This document shows positions 7,428-50,507 of a DNA stretch of 50,507 nucleotides, in pieces (position 1 is the stretch's first letter; every line of letters starts with the position of its first letter). This DNA comes from Alphaproteobacteria bacterium (lineage in GTDB: Bacteria > Pseudomonadota > Alphaproteobacteria > UBA9219 > RGZA01). The stretch is from NCBI GenBank assembly GCA_021732145.1, contig JAKFVN010000049.1, forward strand, positions 1-50,507. Reading direction: 5' to 3'. The translations under genes were made by a program, and so were the position numbers. The notes under the pieces were generated by a model. The model made no database searches and had not been told where the DNA came from. It saw only the letters and a list, made by a program, of their open reading frames with translations.

Positions 7428-7449
7428 GCCTTTCGACGAATTTCTGATA

Positions 7450-7483
7450 AACTCCCCGGAACGCAAATTCCGGGGAGTTTTTT
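7450..7483 (+). terminator. Rho-independent terminator of csp
   Basis: A perfect 12-bp stem, AACTCCCCGGAA (7450-7461) and TTCCGGGGAGTT (7468-7479), with a six-base loop and a T-run. The T-run ends on the ATG of the next gene (7484). Confidence 0.92.
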
Positions 7484-7876
7484 ATGTCCAAACGCAAACC
7501 ACGGCGGCTGTTACGATTTGAAGGCAAATCCGACCCTGTGCTGTCACACCGCCAATGGTTGCAGCGCATCATCAATACCCTATGGCTGGCTTTTGGTGTC
7601 ATTACCATTTCGCTTGGCATTGGCATTATGGGGTATCATTTTATCTCCGGCCTTCCCTGGATTGATGCGATTTTGGAGGCCTCGATGATTTTGGGCGGCA
7701 TGGGCGCAATCGCGCCGATAACAACCGATGCCGCAAAATTATTCGCATCCTTTTATGCGTTGATGAGCGGCCTGGTTATCATCAGCACCACCGGTATTCT
7801 GCTTGCGCCCTTCCTGCACCGCATGATGCACCGCTTTCACGCCGACCCGGAACCCGATGGCGGAAGCGATAAATGA
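7484..7876 (+). CDS. small membrane protein resembling a K+-channel pore module without filter
   Basis: 130 residues. A basic N-terminus, a first membrane helix (about residues 28-52), a short re-entrant-like segment (60-80) and a second helix (90-112), then a polar tail. The layout TM - pore helix - TM and the stretch [23 protein letters not shown] follow the pattern around the filter of two-TM K+ channels (TVGYGD.xP.T..GK.FA..Y.L), but the TVGYGD filter is replaced by GGMGAIA. It is therefore not a classical K+ channel. The gene starts right at the csp terminator and overlaps the methyltransferase start by four bases (ATGA). Function unknown. Confidence 0.7.
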
Positions 7877-9433: not shown

Positions 9434-11479
9434 ATGTCATCCTTTAAAGACTTTGCGTTACCGCAAGCCATCCAACACGCCATCGAAAAACTGAACTACA
9501 CCACCGCTACGCCAATTCAGGCGCAAGCCATCCCCCCTGCCCTTGAAGGCAAGGACGTTTTGGGAACTGCGCAAACAGGTACCGGTAAAACCGCAGCTTT
9601 TGCTATTCCGCTGATTGCGAAGTTGATGGAAAATCACACCGCAACCGCCATCGTGCTGCTCCCGACCCGTGAACTGGCGGCGCAAGTTGAAAAAGCCGTG
9701 ATTGAACTCTCCGCTGGCTCCAAACTTTTAACCGCTCTGCTCATTGGCGGCGATTCGATGGGCAAGCAGTTGAACCAATTGCAAAAGAAACCCCGCGTCA
9801 TCATCGGCACGCCGGGCCGCGTGAACGACCATTTGAAGCGCGGCACACTCAAACTTTCCCACGCTGAAGTTTTGGTGCTCGATGAAACCGACCGCATGCT
9901 CGATATGGGTTTTGGTATTCAAATTGAAACCATCATTGAAAAGATGCCAAAACAGCGCCAAACGCTGATGTTCTCCGCCACCATGCCGGGCGAAATCGTC
10001 AAGCTGGCTGGCCGTTATTTAAACCACCCCGTGCGCATTTCGGTTGGCGAAACCAACCAAACCGCAGCCAATGTGGAATCAAAGGTTGTTGAAACCGAAG
10101 ACGGCAAGAAATACGAACACCTCATCCGCGAACTTGGCGAACGCCAGGGCAGCGTGATTATTTTCGTGAAGACCAAATACGGTGCAGACCGTTTGGCGAA
10201 GCGTTTGCGTGGTGATGATCATGAATCCGATGCATTGCACGGCGATTTACGCCAGCACAAGCGTGATAAAGTAACCCGCAACTTCCGCGAACAAAAATAC
10301 CGCATTCTGGTGGCAACCGATGTGGCTGCGCGCGGCCTGGATATTCCGCACATTGAACACGTGATTAATTACGATTTGCCGCAGGCACCGGAAGATTTCA
10401 TTCACCGCATTGGCCGTACTGGCCGTGCAGGCGCAAAGGGACAAGCGGTTAGCTTCGTTGCACCATCTGAATCCCGTAAATGGTTTGCGATTGAACGCCT
10501 GCTTGACCCCACCAAGAAATCCGAAAGAAAACAGGGCAAGTCATCCGGTGGTAATTACGAAAAGCGTGGCCGTGCTGGCAGCGATGGCGAAGGCTATAAG
10601 GGCAAGTCGTTTGGTAAGAAGTTTGGTGGCAAGAAGCCTTTTGGCCGCGATAACCGCCGCGATGATGAAGCGCATAGTGATGCAAGACGTGGTTTTGAAA
10701 AAAAGCGCGAATTCTTCAAGAAAGACCATGTAAATAAGCCAGAAGGCGAACGTGATGAACAACGTTCATTCGCAAAGAAGCCGTTTAAAAAAGAATGGGG
10801 CAACAAAGAACGCAGCTTTGAGCGTAATGATGAGCGCCGTGATGACCGCCGTGATGACCGCCGTGATGACCGCCGTGATGACCGTAAGCCATTTGGCGAA
10901 CGCAAATCATTCGGTGATAAAAAGCAGTTTGGCAAAAAGCCGTTTAATAAAGGTGGCTACGACCCATTAGAAAAGCGCGAAAACTTTGACCGTGAAGCAC
11001 GTGAGTTCGAACGCCGCGATGGCCGCAAGCCGTTCGGTAAAAAACCATTCAACAAAGAATGGGGCAACAAGGAACGCAGCGTTGACCGCGATGACCATAA
11101 ACATAAACCATTCGGTAAAAAGCCGTTTAATAAAGAACGTCGTTTTGACAATGACGGTGAGCGTAAATCATTTGGCGAACGCAAACCGTTTGGCAAGAAG
11201 TTCGATAAAGAACGCAGTTTTGGCAACGATAATCGTCGAGAAGATGGGCGCCACGAAGACAGGCGCGATGACCGTAAATGGAACAAGGGCGGTGACAATC
11301 GTTTCGAAGGGCGCTTTGAGGGCCGTTCCGAAAACCGTTTCGGCAAATCGGAAGGCGGCAACAAGTCGTTTGGCAAGAAATCCTTTGGTAAGCCAAGCTT
11401 TGGCAAACCAGCCTTTGGCAAGCGCAGAGACGAAGACGGCGCTGGCAAGCCACGCCACTTCAATAAAAAGCGCGGCTAA
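9434..11479 (+). CDS. DEAD-box RNA helicase with long repetitive basic tail (RhlE-like)
   Basis: 681 residues. The core (1 to about 360) has all helicase motifs: AQTGTGKT (I), PTRELA (Ia), TPGR (Ib), SAT (III), ATDVAARGLD (V) and HRIGRTGRAG (VI). Motif II reads DETD (150-153) instead of DEAD. The remaining 320 residues are low complexity, made of Lys, Arg, Phe, Gly, Asp and Asn, with recurrent KPFGKKPFNK, EWGNKERS, FGERK and a tandem RRDD block, so the tail is disordered and RNA-binding in character. It should unwind RNA in ribosome assembly or mRNA decay. The ribosome site is weak and the leader is structured. Confidence 0.9.
   Translation: MSSFKDFALPQAIQHAIEKLNYTTATPIQAQAIPPALEGKDVLGTAQTGTGKTAAFAIPLIAKLMENHTATAIVLLPTRELAAQVEKAVIELSAGSKLLTALLIGGDSMGKQLNQLQKKPRVIIGTPGRVNDHLKRGTLKLSHAEVLVLDETDRMLDMGFGIQIETIIEKMPKQRQTLMFSATMPGEIVKLAGRYLNHPVRISVGETNQTAANVESKVVETEDGKKYEHLIRELGERQGSVIIFVKTKYGADRLAKRLRGDDHESDALHGDLRQHKRDKVTRNFREQKYRILVATDVAARGLDIPHIEHVINYDLPQAPEDFIHRIGRTGRAGAKGQAVSFVAPSESRKWFAIERLLDPTKKSERKQGKSSGGNYEKRGRAGSDGEGYKGKSFGKKFGGKKPFGRDNRRDDEAHSDARRGFEKKREFFKKDHVNKPEGERDEQRSFAKKPFKKEWGNKERSFERNDERRDDRRDDRRDDRRDDRKPFGERKSFGDKKQFGKKPFNKGGYDPLEKRENFDREAREFERRDGRKPFGKKPFNKEWGNKERSVDRDDHKHKPFGKKPFNKERRFDNDGERKSFGERKPFGKKFDKERSFGNDNRREDGRHEDRRDDRKWNKGGDNRFEGRFEGRSENRFGKSEGGNKSFGKKSFGKPSFGKPAFGKRRDEDGAGKPRHFNKKRG
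10835..10882 (+). repeat. four perfect 12-base tandem repeats inside the helicase tail
   Basis: CGCCGTGATGAC occurs four times in a row without change, coding for (Arg-Arg-Asp-Asp)-type repeats. Perfect identity at the DNA level suggests recent slippage and a length that may vary between strains; each gain or loss keeps the frame. Confidence 0.9.
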
Positions 11480-11498
11480 CCTTCACTAAACAGCACTA

Positions 11499-11575
11499 AA
11501 TGGTAGTTTCATCGGGAAGCCGATGAAGCGCCATTAGCTTGCCTTAATTAAGGCAGAGCCTCTAGGGCGCTTCCC
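11499..11575 (+). promoter_or_regulatory. structured leader with two competing folds
   Basis: Fold one is TTCATCGG (11508-11515) / CCGATGAA (11520-11527) with a GAAG loop, extended by AATGG (11499-11503) / CCATT (11531-11535). Fold two is GAAGCGCC (11525-11532) / GGCGCTTC (11566-11573), which encloses the perfect palindrome TGCCTTAATTAAGGCA (11540-11555). The folds share bases 11525-11532 and so exclude each other. The AGGAG ribosome site of the next gene starts at 11590. It may be a regulatory leader; it has no T-run, so it is not a simple terminator. Confidence 0.55.
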
Positions 11576-11600
11576 ACCCAACCCGCATCAGGAGCGTTCC

Positions 11601-12005
11601 ATGTCCATCACTAAATCCCCCCTTTTAAAAACTATGGCACTCGCAGCAGTACTCACCACAGTAATTATTGGAGGCGTTGCATCCAGCGCATTCGCATACC
11701 AGGTCACCGGCCCAATCCTTGAGCTGACCGACAGCAAGATTGTTGTGCAAAAGGGCAAGGAGAAATGGGAGATTGCGCGCACCGGCGCAACTGAAATTCC
11801 AGTAGATGCAAACGTTGGCGACAAGGTCACCATCGAATACGGCATGACTGCAGAAAAAGTTGAAGTAAAGGGCGCAAAGAAAGCTGAAAAGCCAGCCACA
11901 CAACCAAGCGCGCAACCAGCAACGGCAACCGCAGGCGTGAACGCAACCACGCATGTATCCACCAAGGCACCAAAGCCAATGCCCGCACCCGCGGTATCAC
12001 GGTAA
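11601..12005 (+). CDS. small exported protein of unknown function
   Basis: 134 residues. A signal peptide ends at about ASSAFA (residues 26-31). The mature N-terminal half (YQVTGPILELTDSKIVVQKGKEKWEIARTG... VGDKVTIEYGMTAEKVEVK) is a compact beta-rich domain that looks like a small OB-like or DUF5666-like fold. The C-terminal 45 residues are Ala, Pro and Thr rich and disordered. It is probably periplasmic. A good AGGAG ribosome site and the structured leader at 11499-11575 precede it and a terminator follows. I do not recognise a function. Confidence 0.75.
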   Translation: MSITKSPLLKTMALAAVLTTVIIGGVASSAFAYQVTGPILELTDSKIVVQKGKEKWEIARTGATEIPVDANVGDKVTIEYGMTAEKVEVKGAKKAEKPATQPSAQPATATAGVNATTHVSTKAPKPMPAPAVSR

Positions 12006-12023
12006 TATACCCACACGACGCAC

Positions 12024-12050
12024 GGCCTCGTCCGCATAAGCGGACGGGCC
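12024..12050 (+). other. GC-rich hairpin downstream of the small exported protein
   Basis: GTCCGC (12030-12035) / GCGGAC (12040-12045) with an ATAA loop, extended by GGCC (12024-12027) / GGCC (12047-12050). It has no T-run. It stands between the stop codon and the terminator at 12070-12099. Confidence 0.6.
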
Positions 12051-12069
12051 AGCGGTCGCTGACCTTAAG

Positions 12070-12099
12070 AAACCGCCTTCACTTCGAGGCAGTTTTTTT
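12070..12099 (+). terminator. terminator between the small exported protein and uup
   Basis: AAACCGCCT (12070-12078) / AGGCAGTTT (12087-12095), nine positions with one C-A mismatch, followed by Ts to 12099. The T-run overlaps the uup stop codon, so it serves the rightward transcript; there is no T-run on the other strand. Confidence 0.75.
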
Positions 12100-13963
12100 A
12101 TGCCTGCGTTGCCGAACTAATCAGCGCATCCAGTTCCAGCCAGCGCTGTTCGGCTTTTTCTAACTCATGCGTTGCTGCGCCGTGGCGCTTGGTTGCTTCG
12201 TGGAATGCATCAATATCCCGCGCATAGAAATCGGCATCTTGCAGCAGCGTGTTTAAATCCGCGATTTCGTGTTCCAACGCCGCAATTTTATCGGGCAATT
12301 GCTCCCATTCATATTGATGCTTATAGGAAAGCTTAATCGCTGGCTTTTCAACCTTGCGCGGTTCGCTTTTCACCGGCTGCGCTTTTGGTTTTTCAATGAC
12401 CGTTTCTACAGGCGCTTTCCTGGCATCGCGCTTTTGCTTGAACGCCAGATAATCCTGATAACCGCCAATCACGCCTTCCACCTTGCCATCGCCTTCAAAG
12501 GCCAACATTTTGCTAACCGTTTGGTCCAGGAAATCGCGGTCATGGCTGACCACAATCAACGTACCCGTATACCCCGCCAGAATATCTTCCAGCATATCCA
12601 GCGTATCCATATCCAGATCGTTGGTGGGTTCATCCAAAATGAGCAGGCTGCCGGGGTTCGCCAGAATTTTGGCCAGCAGCAAACGGTTCTTTTGCCCGCC
12701 CGATAAGGTGCTGACCGCGTGGTGCACCATTTTGGGGTCGAACATGAAATCTTTTAAATAGCCGCAGATATGGCGGGTTTTGCCCATCACATCCAAATGG
12801 TCGCTGCCATTGGGGCATAATGTTTTATGAAGGGAATTTTCGGGATTCAAATCCTTGCGCTTCTGGTCGAAATACGAAAACTGCAAATCCTTGGTCAGTT
12901 TTACCTTGCCCATATCGGGCGCGAGCTCACCTACCAGCATTTTCAGGAAACTTGTTTTACCCGAACCGTTTTTGCCCACAATGCCAATGCGGTCGCCGCG
13001 CATGATGCGCAGGTTAAATCCATCCAGAATGGTTTTCTTGCGCCCTTCATCCTCATAGCTTTTATGCACCTTGAAGAATTCCGCAACGATGCGGGTGGAC
13101 GATACCTCTTCTTCCTTCAGCGGCGTGAATTCAATTTTGGATAGCATACGTGCGAGGGAATTCTTATCCGCGCGCAGCCTGTCACGTTCAATCTTCATCA
13201 ATTCAACGCGGCGCACATTGCGTTTGCGGCGTGCCTTCACACCCCTGCTCGCCCACTCTACCTCTTGGTCTAATACCTTCTGGCGGTTTTTTAATTCGCG
13301 CTCTTCATGCTCCAATAACTGGGTTGACCATTCTTCGAAATGGCCAAAGCCGCGCGGGCATACGCGCAAGCGCCCTCTATCCAGCCAGAAAACCTTATCC
13401 GATATATTCGCCAAAAATGCCTTGTCGTGGCTGATGCAGACAATCGCGCCATGATAGAATTTCAGGTAGGTTTCCAGCCATTCAATGACATCCAGATCCA
13501 AATGGTTAGTGGGTTCGTCCAATAACAGAATATCGGGGCCTTCCACCAGCGCGCGTGCCAGCGCAGCGCGGCGCAATTGCCCGCCCGACAACGCCGCCAT
13601 TTTATCATCCAAATTCAGATGCAGCGGCGCGATGACCATTTCAATTTTATAATCCTGCGCGCCGTCTTGGTTATCAACGCTTAAGCCTTCAAATACAAAA
13701 TCGTAAACCGTCTGGCCGGGCTTGAAATGCACTTCCTGCTGCAAATAACCAACGCTGGTGCCTTGCAATTGCCAGCGCTCGCCCTCATCTAATTCCTTGA
13801 TGCCCTGAATGATGTTCATCAGCGTTGTTTTGCCTACGCCGTTTTTGCCGACCAGGCAAATCTTGTCGCCTTCGCAAATCGAGAAGGATAGGTTTTCGAA
13901 CAAGACTTTTTCGCCATACTGGATGGCGGCATCTTGAACGCTGAGCAAAAGGGTCGCGGCCAC
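12098..13963 (-). CDS. uup: ABC-F ATPase Uup
   Basis: 621 residues with two ABC domains and no membrane segments. The first has GKNGVGKT, LSGGQLRRAALARAL and LLLDEPTNHLDL; the second GKNGSGKT, LSGGQKNRLLLAKIL and LILDEPTNDLDM. The linker (about 225-285) is basic and the last 70 residues form a coiled coil, as in Uup, which binds branched DNA and acts on ribosomes. The start is a GTG at 13961-13963 with a weak ribosome site; a TTG six codons further on is the alternative. The gene is divergent from the queuosine operon. Confidence 0.88.
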   Translation of the reverse strand: MAATLLLSVQDAAIQYGEKVLFENLSFSICEGDKICLVGKNGVGKTTLMNIIQGIKELDEGERWQLQGTSVGYLQQEVHFKPGQTVYDFVFEGLSVDNQDGAQDYKIEMVIAPLHLNLDDKMAALSGGQLRRAALARALVEGPDILLLDEPTNHLDLDVIEWLETYLKFYHGAIVCISHDKAFLANISDKVFWLDRGRLRVCPRGFGHFEEWSTQLLEHEERELKNRQKVLDQEVEWASRGVKARRKRNVRRVELMKIERDRLRADKNSLARMLSKIEFTPLKEEEVSSTRIVAEFFKVHKSYEDEGRKKTILDGFNLRIMRGDRIGIVGKNGSGKTSFLKMLVGELAPDMGKVKLTKDLQFSYFDQKRKDLNPENSLHKTLCPNGSDHLDVMGKTRHICGYLKDFMFDPKMVHHAVSTLSGGQKNRLLLAKILANPGSLLILDEPTNDLDMDTLDMLEDILAGYTGTLIVVSHDRDFLDQTVSKMLAFEGDGKVEGVIGGYQDYLAFKQKRDARKAPVETVIEKPKAQPVKSEPRKVEKPAIKLSYKHQYEWEQLPDKIAALEHEIADLNTLLQDADFYARDIDAFHEATKRHGAATHELEKAEQRWLELDALISSATQA

Positions 13964-44422: not shown

Positions 44423-45745
44423 TTAGTCAATATCCATAAACATAAAATTATTGTTCGATAATTCCTGAACCTTTGGCAAATGCGCGCGTATGGCTTTCTG
44501 CAAATTACTGCGCTCATCAATGAATTGCTCAATTTTTGCGATTAAATCCTGCGTTTCAAGCACCGCATTCGGGCTTACCAATAGCCATTCCGGCAGATTG
44601 AAATAATCAAACAGCCCCTGGAATTTATCCTGATAGGTCAGCGCCAGAACCGGCACGCCCATGCCAAGCGCCGCAATCGCCAGATGCATGCGGCCGGTCA
44701 CAAGGCCATCTGCAAGCCCAACCATACCCTTCAGCGTTGCGGCTGTGGGCTGCCCCGTAATGTGCAGGATATTTTTCAGGCCTCTTGCCTGCAATTGCTT
44801 CGCGATTGCATCCAGGCAAATATTATCGGCCAGCTTCGCGCGAAAATCATGCGGAACCAGCAGCCAGCCAACCTTCTTACGCTGTGAAACGCCTGCAATA
44901 ACATTCACCATGCCATCAACCAGCGCTTTAATCTGCCGGGTGCTTGCATGCTTAATCAGCATGGGGTGAAGGTTGAAACCGATCACCTCATTGCCAGCTT
45001 CGCGCTGCTGGCTAACCCATGCGCTAACGCTCTTATATTCTGCACCCTGCGCATCTGGCTTAAGGCAAAAGGCGGCATCTGTAACCTGATGCGTATCGCG
45101 TGATGTGAATGCCTTGAAACGGCTGTTTGAAATCGCATCCCGCAAGTTAAACCGTACCGATGGGTGCATGTGCTGGAAGGCTGCTTTCAGTTCCGGCGCG
45201 GGCGCGGCATTAAAGCTAAAGCCGATAAAGGCAACCCGTGCGCCCAAACGCGCGCACAGATCGCCAATAATCAAATAACCGAGCGTGCCATAGGATGTGT
45301 AATAGCCATCCATCGCATCCGCGCCAAGCAACGCCACTGCATCGGGTGCATAACTCTTTAAATCAGCATAGAGCTGTTCTGGATTAATCATATCTTGCCA
45401 TGCACGCAGCGGCACGCAGCCCATTTTATTCGCAGCCATATCGGCGGCATCGGTTGCGGTCAGTACGGCGATGTGCATGCTTGGATTTTTTGCTCGGGCT
45501 TTATCAATAACCGCCGTCATCATCGCATGGTCACCGCGCGAGCCTGTTAACGTATAAGGATCCGGTGGGATAACCAGCAGCCTGTCAAAACGCTGCGATG
45601 AAGGCTTGCCCGCAATGGCCTTGGCGAGCGATAACCATTCCTGCACGGCGTGATTATACCGATGCTTGGCGCGCAGCGCCGCAATAAACGGGATGCGCGA
45701 CAAAACGGCGTTAACAATCCGCTTAGGTGTGATTTTTTTTGTCAT
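44423..45745 (-). CDS. polysaccharide pyruvyltransferase family protein
   Basis: 440 residues. LLVIPPDPYTLTGSRGDHAMMTAVID and the C-terminal LADGLVTGRMHLAIAALGMGVPVLALTYQDKFQGLFDYF match the CsaB/PssM-like pyruvyltransferase family (PF04230). It would add ketal-linked pyruvate from phosphoenolpyruvate to a sugar of the polymer, giving negative charge. Its stop is two bases from that of the convergent acetyltransferase. It follows the flippase with a four-base overlap. Confidence 0.82.
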   Translation of the reverse strand: MTKKITPKRIVNAVLSRIPFIAALRAKHRYNHAVQEWLSLAKAIAGKPSSQRFDRLLVIPPDPYTLTGSRGDHAMMTAVIDKARAKNPSMHIAVLTATDAADMAANKMGCVPLRAWQDMINPEQLYADLKSYAPDAVALLGADAMDGYYTSYGTLGYLIIGDLCARLGARVAFIGFSFNAAPAPELKAAFQHMHPSVRFNLRDAISNSRFKAFTSRDTHQVTDAAFCLKPDAQGAEYKSVSAWVSQQREAGNEVIGFNLHPMLIKHASTRQIKALVDGMVNVIAGVSQRKKVGWLLVPHDFRAKLADNICLDAIAKQLQARGLKNILHITGQPTAATLKGMVGLADGLVTGRMHLAIAALGMGVPVLALTYQDKFQGLFDYFNLPEWLLVSPNAVLETQDLIAKIEQFIDERSNLQKAIRAHLPKVQELSNNNFMFMDID

Positions 45746-48498: not shown

Positions 48499-50507
48499 TT
48501 AATGCAGCATTCCAACGGTTGGTGGCTTGCGCTGGCGTTTCTGCCATTCATCATCAAATATCAGGAATTCGGGAATTGCCAATGGTGTCTGCAAACTCTT
48601 CTTCACAGTGTTTGGAAGTTGCAGCGCAAGCGACAAATCAGGCGTTGGCGTGACAACCACAACCACTGGCGTTCCGGTTGCAAGAATGTCGGCAATCGTC
48701 ATCGCGCTGCTATTATAGGTGTAGTTGCTGCTGTCAGTGCCAGTCAGGATGAGGCCCGTTACATTAACTGGCTTATTGGTGCCCACGCTGCTGTTCGAAT
48801 AATGCGCGTCGCTATAGGTATAGGTCAGGATATCGCCCGATACACGGTTATCGCTCAGCATGACAATCGCATTGTCATTGCCATCATACACTTTATTGGA
48901 AGCCGTTGCGCTAATCAGCAATGCGCGCGGCGTGATATCTGCTGTAGCCGCGCCGGTGCTTGCGGTTACGTAATTGCCGCTTGCCACGCCAACAAGGCTT
49001 ATGCCTGTCACGCTGATGGCCTTGCCCACGCCCACATTCTTATCGTTAAAGTTTGAATTGAAGGTATAGCCAAACACATCGCCTGCAATGCGATTATCGG
49101 TGATATGAATGCCGGCGGTTGTGGTGCCGTCATATACCTTGTTCACGCCAACAATGCTTGCAACCAATGTGCGCGGCGTAATCGTCGCAGTGGTGCTTGC
49201 GGTGGTGTTGAAGGCGTAATTGCCCGCATCGCCTGTTGCGATACTGATGCCGGTTACATTGATGGTCTTGTTCACGCCAGCATTCTTATTCACGAAGGTT
49301 GCAGCGCCATAGCTGGTGGTGAACACATCGCCCGCCACGCGGTTATCATTCAACGTGATGCCTGCAGCCGTTAAACCGTCATACACCTTGCCTGTACCGC
49401 TTGCGGTAATCAGCAAGGCGCGCTTGGTGATATTTGCCGAGGCCGATGCGGTTGCATTGAACGTATAGTTACCTGAATCACCGCCAGCAATGTTCAAGCC
49501 AAGCACGCTGATGGACTTGCCCGTGCCCACGTTCTTATCCGCAAAATCGGAACTGGTATAGCTGGTGGTGAACACATCGCCCGCCACGCGGTTGTCATTT
49601 AATGTAACACCTGCGGTTGTCAGGCCATTATATGCACGACTGATACCGGTTGCGCCGATGGTGAGCGCGCGCGGGGTAATGTCAGCCGTAGCGCTGGCGC
49701 TTGTGTTAAAGGTATAGTTGCCAGCATCCCCTGTTGTGATATTGATGCCAGTGATATTGACTGTCTTGCCACTGCCCACATTCTTATTGGCAAAGGTGCC
49801 GGTATAGGTTGTGGTGAACACATCGCCCGCCACGCGGTCATCAGAAAGCGTTGCAGCAGCAACCGTGTTCCCGTTATAGACCTTGTCAATACCTGTTGCA
49901 GTGATGGTAAGTGCACGCTGCGTGATGTCAGCCGATGCGCTTGCGGTGGTGTTGAAGCTATAGTTTGCTGAATCCCCACCGGTAATGCTCAGGCCCGTTA
50001 CGTTGATTGACTTATTGTTGCCCACATTCTTATTGGCGAAGTTCGCCGCGCCATAGCTGGTGGTGAATACATCGCCCGCCACGCGGTCATCGCTGAAGCT
50101 TGCGCCAGCAGTTGTCAGGCCGTTATACACCTTATCCACGCCAGTCGCTGAAATCGTCAATGCGCGCTGCGTAATATCGGCTGCGGTGCTTGCCGTTGTA
50201 TTAAAGGTGTAATTTGCTGCATCACCCGATGTGATATTGATGCCCGTTACGCTAATCGCCTTGCCAATGCCCACATTCTTGTCGCCAAAGGTAGCGCTGC
50301 CATAGCTGGTGGTGAATGTGTCGCCCGCCACGCGGTCATCGCTGAAGTTCACGCCCGCTGTGAGGGTGCCGTTATAAATCTTATCCGCGCCAGTCGCTGA
50401 AATGGTCAATGCGCGCTGCGTGATATCGGCGGAAGCAGAGGCCGTGGTATTGAACAAGTAATTTGCTGCATCACCGCCGGTAATGTTCAGGCCAGTCACG
50501 CTGATAC
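48499..50507 (-). CDS. surface adhesin with MBG/YDG repeats, C-terminal part
   Basis: 669 residues up to the right edge, still open there. Seven complete repeats of 82-83 residues (ITQRALTISATG.DKVYNG....AG..FSDDRVAGDVFTTSYG...F.NKNVG..K.I.VTG..I..GD..NY.FNTTAS..AD) and part of an eighth fill most of it. The KVYDG motif identifies the YDG/MBG domain of filamentous-haemagglutinin-like adhesins. The repeats are followed by a 62-residue Pro/Val tail ending TVGMLH without an autotransporter barrel. The N-terminus with signal and secretion domain would be beyond the edge. It lies 82 bases downstream of the transferase. Confidence 0.85.
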   Translation of the reverse strand, partial: ISVTGLNITGGDAANYLFNTTASASADITQRALTISATGADKIYNGTLTAGVNFSDDRVAGDTFTTSYGSATFGDKNVGIGKAISVTGINITSGDAANYTFNTTASTAADITQRALTISATGVDKVYNGLTTAGASFSDDRVAGDVFTTSYGAANFANKNVGNNKSINVTGLSITGGDSANYSFNTTASASADITQRALTITATGIDKVYNGNTVAAATLSDDRVAGDVFTTTYTGTFANKNVGSGKTVNITGINITTGDAGNYTFNTSASATADITPRALTIGATGISRAYNGLTTAGVTLNDNRVAGDVFTTSYTSSDFADKNVGTGKSISVLGLNIAGGDSGNYTFNATASASANITKRALLITASGTGKVYDGLTAAGITLNDNRVAGDVFTTSYGAATFVNKNAGVNKTINVTGISIATGDAGNYAFNTTASTTATITPRTLVASIVGVNKVYDGTTTAGIHITDNRIAGDVFGYTFNSNFNDKNVGVGKAISVTGISLVGVASGNYVTASTGAATADITPRALLISATASNKVYDGNDNAIVMLSDNRVSGDILTYTYSDAHYSNSSVGTNKPVNVTGLILTGTDSSNYTYNSSAMTIADILATGTPVVVVVTPTPDLSLALQLPNTVKKSLQTPLAIPEFLIFDDEWQKRQRKPPTVGMLH
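48688..50424 (-). repeat. seven tandem repeats of 246-249 bases coding for MBG/YDG domains
   Basis: Reading in the direction of the gene, units of 83, 83, 82, 83, 83, 82 and 83 codons start with Ile-Thr-(Gln/Pro/Lys)-Arg. The first five keep RVAGDVFTT or RVAGDTFTT; the last two are the most diverged. A partial eighth copy lies at 50425-50507. Confidence 0.92.

Follow-up and report, generated by a model that had tools for sequence, protein, structure and literature searches.

A probable structured leader with competing helices between a helicase gene and a small exported protein gene, a candidate translational switch in an alphaproteobacterial genus

Introduction

Translational attenuators of the erm/cat type are controlled by a leader peptide and carry competing helices (1:2, 2:3 and 3:4), of which 3:4 hides the ribosome site. 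In translational riboswitches, an anti-sequestor competes with a sequestor of the ribosome site. The leader analyzed here has in common with the erm/cat attenuators the 1:2/2:3/3:4 chain with 3:4 on the ribosome site, but differs in that the attenuators have a translated, conserved leader peptide over segment 1, and none convincing was found in the leaders of the two species compared. With translational riboswitches it shares the competition between anti-sequestor and ribosome-site sequestor; it differs from them in having no Rfam match and no sign of a ligand-binding core, and in being found in two genomes only.

The gene following the leader encodes a small exported protein related in sequence to ExtJ (NF040942), a small exported protein of selenite/tellurite reduction operons. 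One publication describes ExtJ as small and periplasmic (PMC6148476), and another as a small protein whose function is unknown (PMC5877670). The two settings differ, as the small gene here adjoins a helicase gene and no helicase neighbor was found in 67 distant homologue loci.

If real, the leader would add an unclassified cis-regulatory RNA of compact 1:2/2:3/3:4 design, in a genus represented by three genomes, and would offer an initial way into the regulation of a widespread family of exported proteins whose function is unknown. Such claims can be tested with a species pair when its own synteny supplies the null.

Flanking genes and possible joint transcript

The window (the whole 50,507-nt stretch of DNA that was analyzed) belongs to a genome of 2.09 Mb, hereafter G000. 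In it, 121 bases separate a DEAD-box RNA helicase gene (9434-11479, + strand; 681 aa with a basic low-complexity tail; Pfam DEAD 8.6e-50, Helicase_C 6.7e-32) from the small exported protein gene (11601-12005, + strand, ATG at 11601; 134 aa, ExtJ-like family), the product of which has a signal peptide with likely cleavage between AFA and YQ, as judged by eye. The genus comparison covered three genomes, G000 included. An orthologue of the small protein was present in G002 (89-90% identity, same position after the helicase), where the helicase orthologue also lies upstream of the leader, and none was present in G001. Both the small gene and the leader were absent from G001; in the corresponding region (L009 1888-2100) a strong intrinsic terminator (15-bp stem, T-run) directly follows the helicase gene, and a different gene comes next. 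As both are missing where the helicase has its own terminator, the two were apparently acquired or lost as a unit.

A terminator-like site was searched for on the + strand between the helicase and small genes of G000 and none was found, in line with the original view that the leader is not a terminator. This result, together with the terminator after the G001 helicase, suggests that helicase and small gene may share one transcript. One weak terminator-like match (5-bp stem) was found inside the G002 leader, and an intrinsic terminator-like site follows the small gene in the window (12075-12100, + strand). A scan of 11400-12150 gave no sigma-70-like promoter, which says little.

Helices of the leader

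A structured RNA leader at 11499-11600 is probably genuine, at least as regards its first hairpin, P1 (segments 1:2; 11499-11535, + strand). P1 has 16 bp, a GAAG loop at 11516-11519 and a predicted energy of -21.3 kcal/mol, and in its inner part TTCATCGG (11508-11515) pairs with CCGATGAA (11520-11527). The preliminary description had recognized a hairpin here, but not its full length. Its central proposal was that eight bases, GAAGCGCC (segment 2; 11525-11532, + strand), pair either with this hairpin or with an arm downstream. Both complementarities were borne out when the sequence was checked. All eight bases lie in the full 16-bp P1, whereas the shorter hairpin shares only three of them (11525-11527), and the downstream arm, GGCGCTTC (segment 3, + strand), is at 11566-11573 and not at 11568-11575. 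With the arm ending at 11573, this second fold does stop 16 bases ahead of the AGGAG ribosome site (11590-11594), as had been said. The pairing of segments 2 and 3, termed the anti-sequestor (AS), encloses hairpin P2 (11537-11559, + strand), which contains the reported perfect 16-base palindrome TGCCTTAATTAAGGCA (11540-11555). By count the palindrome is not remarkable and is about at chance level (expected number in 50.5 kb, 4^-8 x 50,507 = 0.8; found, one).

A third helix had been overlooked. In this sequestor (S), 11565-11573 pairs with 11591-11599 (segment 4) and covers the ribosome site, its 3' arm and that site together occupying 11590-11599 on the + strand. Because GGCGCTTC also pairs with the ribosome site (at 11591-11598), the leader is a chain consisting of the P1 hairpin (1:2), AS (2:3) and S (3:4). 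S and AS share 11566-11573, and both are pairable in G000 and in G002. The architecture is better than in the version first described, as AS competes with the helix that hides the ribosome site.

The region 11480-11620 folded into three stems, P1, P2 around the palindrome, and S (-42.5 kcal/mol, z = -3.6, 0 of 200 shuffles equally stable); z was -4.15 for an 82-nt fold and -6.5 for the 42-nt P1 stretch. The stability of P1 is not unique, since 19 of 33,648 37-mers from both strands of the window were at least as stable. Rfam gave no match in the window at the gathering cut-off, and nothing relevant for the leader and its homologue at a permissive threshold (to E 5); the statement that the leader belongs to no known family is limited to Rfam 15, in which it has no match.

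Retention of the helices in G002

The G002 leader aligned without gaps over 105 columns, of which 68 were identical, compared with 78-87% identity in long syntenic stretches of the two genomes. P1 kept 13 of 16 pairs with four two-sided changes, S kept eight of nine with one two-sided change, and P2 seven of nine with none. All eight AS pairs were kept despite 7 substitutions (one two-sided and five one-sided changes), five of the eight being G-U wobbles in G002. Exactly three helices of at least 6 bp were pairable in both leaders (P1 core, AS and S), and RNAalifold on the alignment alone returned P1, P2 and S. The full G002 leader was no more stable than its shuffles (z = -0.28). The sequences show the helices as complementarities and show that none of the three is lost in this one homologous leader. 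The check that the preliminary description had proposed, covariation and presence of both folds in homologues, did not refute it in the one leader compared.

In control windows taken from this species pair, three such helices never occurred (0 of 3,724 windows, that is 7,448 overlapping window-strands, of which 12 held two); 3,279 of the windows were mostly coding, and the 445 mostly outside long ORFs also gave none. This count overstates the case, because the leader was picked for the helices seen in its G000 sequence, and it is fairer to ask how often individual helices are retained. In simulated divergence, three such helices arose in 0 of 400 runs when the changed columns were random, and three or more in 49 of 400 when the changed columns were held fixed. 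In a two-sequence shuffle control, P1+P2+S was obtained in 15 of 500 and AS+P2 in 243 of 500. Single-helix nulls (20,000 draws) were 0.006 for P1, 0.022 for AS and 0.09 for S with random columns (pairs kept and two-sided changes taken jointly), and 0.048, 0.12 and 0.23 with fixed columns; re-mutating only the shared arm 11566-11573 gave 0.39 for AS or S.

Against hairpins of the two genomes, P1 was tied first for two-sided changes (n = 1,261). When hairpins with eight or more stem substitutions were ordered by the share of pairs retained, it came 5th of 128, and one of the four ahead of it was P1 itself on the opposite strand. For G000 helices resembling AS with similar substitution counts, all eight pairs were kept in 1 of 128; for those resembling S, at least eight of nine were kept in 13 of 151. 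Retention supports P1 well, AS moderately, and S weakly on its own.

These rates bear on the reading that only P1 is real and that AS and S are coincidental complementarities, favored by G-U pairing and by a pyrimidine tract opposite the purine-rich ribosome site. Such coincidence is consistent with the fixed-column simulation, with the frequency of S-like retention and with the lack of S and AS in the predicted G002 ensemble (below), but it has to account for the complete lack of three-helix control windows, and is considered unlikely.

On the - strand of the leader, only one helix of at least 7 bp with at least four substitutions was retained, and because a single helix survives there, a + strand RNA is favored over a DNA dyad. 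That P1 and the palindrome are dyads would suit a DNA inverted repeat (an operator or the remnant of a mobile element); this is nevertheless highly improbable, as the element is single copy in G000 and absent from the other 31 genomes of the order, the + strand pairing depends on G-U pairs, and the palindrome is asymmetric in G002. A dispersed repeat was likewise put aside, the leader being single copy in the genome.

As a separate observation, a - strand hairpin at 11989-12025 kept 10 of 13 pairs against G002 with four two-sided changes, and is the only hairpin besides P1 among the 1,261 with that many.

Predicted ensembles and a candidate mechanism

At equilibrium, the G000 leader was predicted to form P1 (0.998) and S (0.79) but hardly any AS (0.001), with 11591-11594 unpaired at most 0.02, so that the default state is closed by computation. 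In G002, S (0.000) and AS (0.001) were both lacking; the 3' arm of P1 was instead predicted to pair with the equivalent of 11594-11603 and to hide the start codon directly, which would give P1 the opposite role. The start is therefore predicted to be closed in both species, by different helices. The unpaired probability of the ribosome site was 0.014 in G000 and 0.044 in G002, whereas other starts in the window (n = 21) averaged 0.33, two of these also being at or below 0.05 (rough gene calls; the ribosome-site filter left 21 of 45, including no fewer than two doubtful starts).

In growing-prefix folds, P1 was the first helix to form in both species. When 11499-11515 was blocked in G000, AS rose to 0.99, S fell to 0, and 11591-11594 became partly open (unpaired 0.13, 0.12, 0.40 and 0.72); the same block in G002 had no effect. 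When AS was forced in G000, the ribosome site stayed paired, because the freed 5' arm of P1 paired with it. As forcing AS was ineffective and blocking the 5' arm partly effective, an on-state would need something on the 5' arm of P1, and displacing a helix of -21 kcal/mol is difficult. The translational switch proposed at the outset keeps its helices in G002, but by computation AS is all but missing at equilibrium in both species, forming AS alone does not release the ribosome site, and the two leaders do not fold alike.

A cis-acting leader that serves as a default-off translational switch for the small exported protein is put forward tentatively, somewhat short of an even chance. The helicase-to-small-gene transcript would carry the leader, and translation of the small exported protein would be low by default. 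P1 would form first during transcription, so that segment 3 stays available to segment 4 and the ribosome site is hidden in S. If the 5' arm of P1 were occupied, segment 2 would capture segment 3 as AS and the ribosome site would be exposed. The occupant could be the helicase or some other protein, or else a ribosome that re-initiates once past the helicase stop. Co-transcription, the default-off state, switching and its trigger are what we infer, and with two leader sequences only, the switch remains a candidate.

The same data may be read without switching. In a static structured intercistronic region, P1 would be conserved for mRNA stability or processing, and pairing of the ribosome site would set a constant low translation. 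P1 is the helix with the best support and begins 18-20 nt past the helicase stop in both species, and the equilibrium ensembles give P1 (G000) and a closed start (both) without AS, all as expected for such a region; a static P1, on the other hand, has no need of AS, which was kept in full despite its substitutions, as was seen in a single one of the comparable helices. The static region is held to be just as possible as the default-off switch, which is the most specific reading that fits the data and is no likelier. A narrower form of the switch, restricted to the genus and intercistronic, is a long shot: P1 would be opened either by the helicase protein or by translation of its gene, and the ExtJ-like protein would be switched on as a result; if true, it would be a helicase operon reading its own RNA.

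Two other modes of control were put aside. The ribosome site lies within a helix with G-U pairs, and a UUUU tract is opposite it in G002, as might be expected of an RNA thermometer, but in G000 11591-11594 was computed to remain closed up to 55 °C (unpaired at most 0.12), and a thermometer is scarcely credible. For a leader peptide, the ORFs from the AUG at 11500 encode MVVSSGSR-stop in G000 and MTIP-stop in G002 (8 and 4 codons); no ribosome site was found for them, and they have no residues in common after Met. Translation of this mini-ORF would place a ribosome on P1.

Distribution of the leader and of the small protein

A covariance model (R2) was built from the G000 and G002 leaders and searched against 33 genomes of the order and 385 sampled genomes of the class. 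The leader was found in two of the 33, which are the two building sequences, and in one of the 385, which is G000 itself. The preliminary description had suggested searching for the motif upstream of orthologues: it is present in G002, but the model gave no convincing match among 66 distant homologue loci of the small protein. Viral contigs held no match to the conserved leader DNA pattern and no relatives of the small protein.

Relatives of the small protein were found in 66 GTDB loci, largely Deltaproteobacteria (many Geobacter), Nitrospirae and others, and in two of the 33 order genomes and two of the 385 class genomes sampled. The only homologue in the class sample other than that of G000 (L087, genome G178) has an in-frame TAG within the match. 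Against the NCBIfam model for ExtJ (NF040942), the small protein reached E 3e-5; the scores of 24.3 and 29.3 bits are under the curated cut-off of 52.5, and the protein is called ExtJ-like only. Start accessibility in the distant homologues averaged 0.31, with three at or below 0.05 (44 of the 66 loci were left after filtering), and their starts are not specially closed. As the leader is restricted to two genomes of the genus and unmatched at the relatives of the protein, it goes, within the searches made, with the genus rather than with the protein family.

Other hairpins and repeats in the window

A strong + strand hairpin was observed at 12019-12065 (-26.3 kcal/mol per 37 nt), past the small gene and ahead of its terminator. 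Inspection by eye showed no such hairpin in G002; the Rfam family RcsR1 matches 12013-12099 weakly and below threshold (E 0.25). Sites at 7444-7487 and 45230-45266 (- strand) are among the most stable short hairpins of the window, at about -22 to -27 kcal/mol. The region 48811-50505 had several overlapping, shifted matches in G002, as expected for a gene with long internal repeats.
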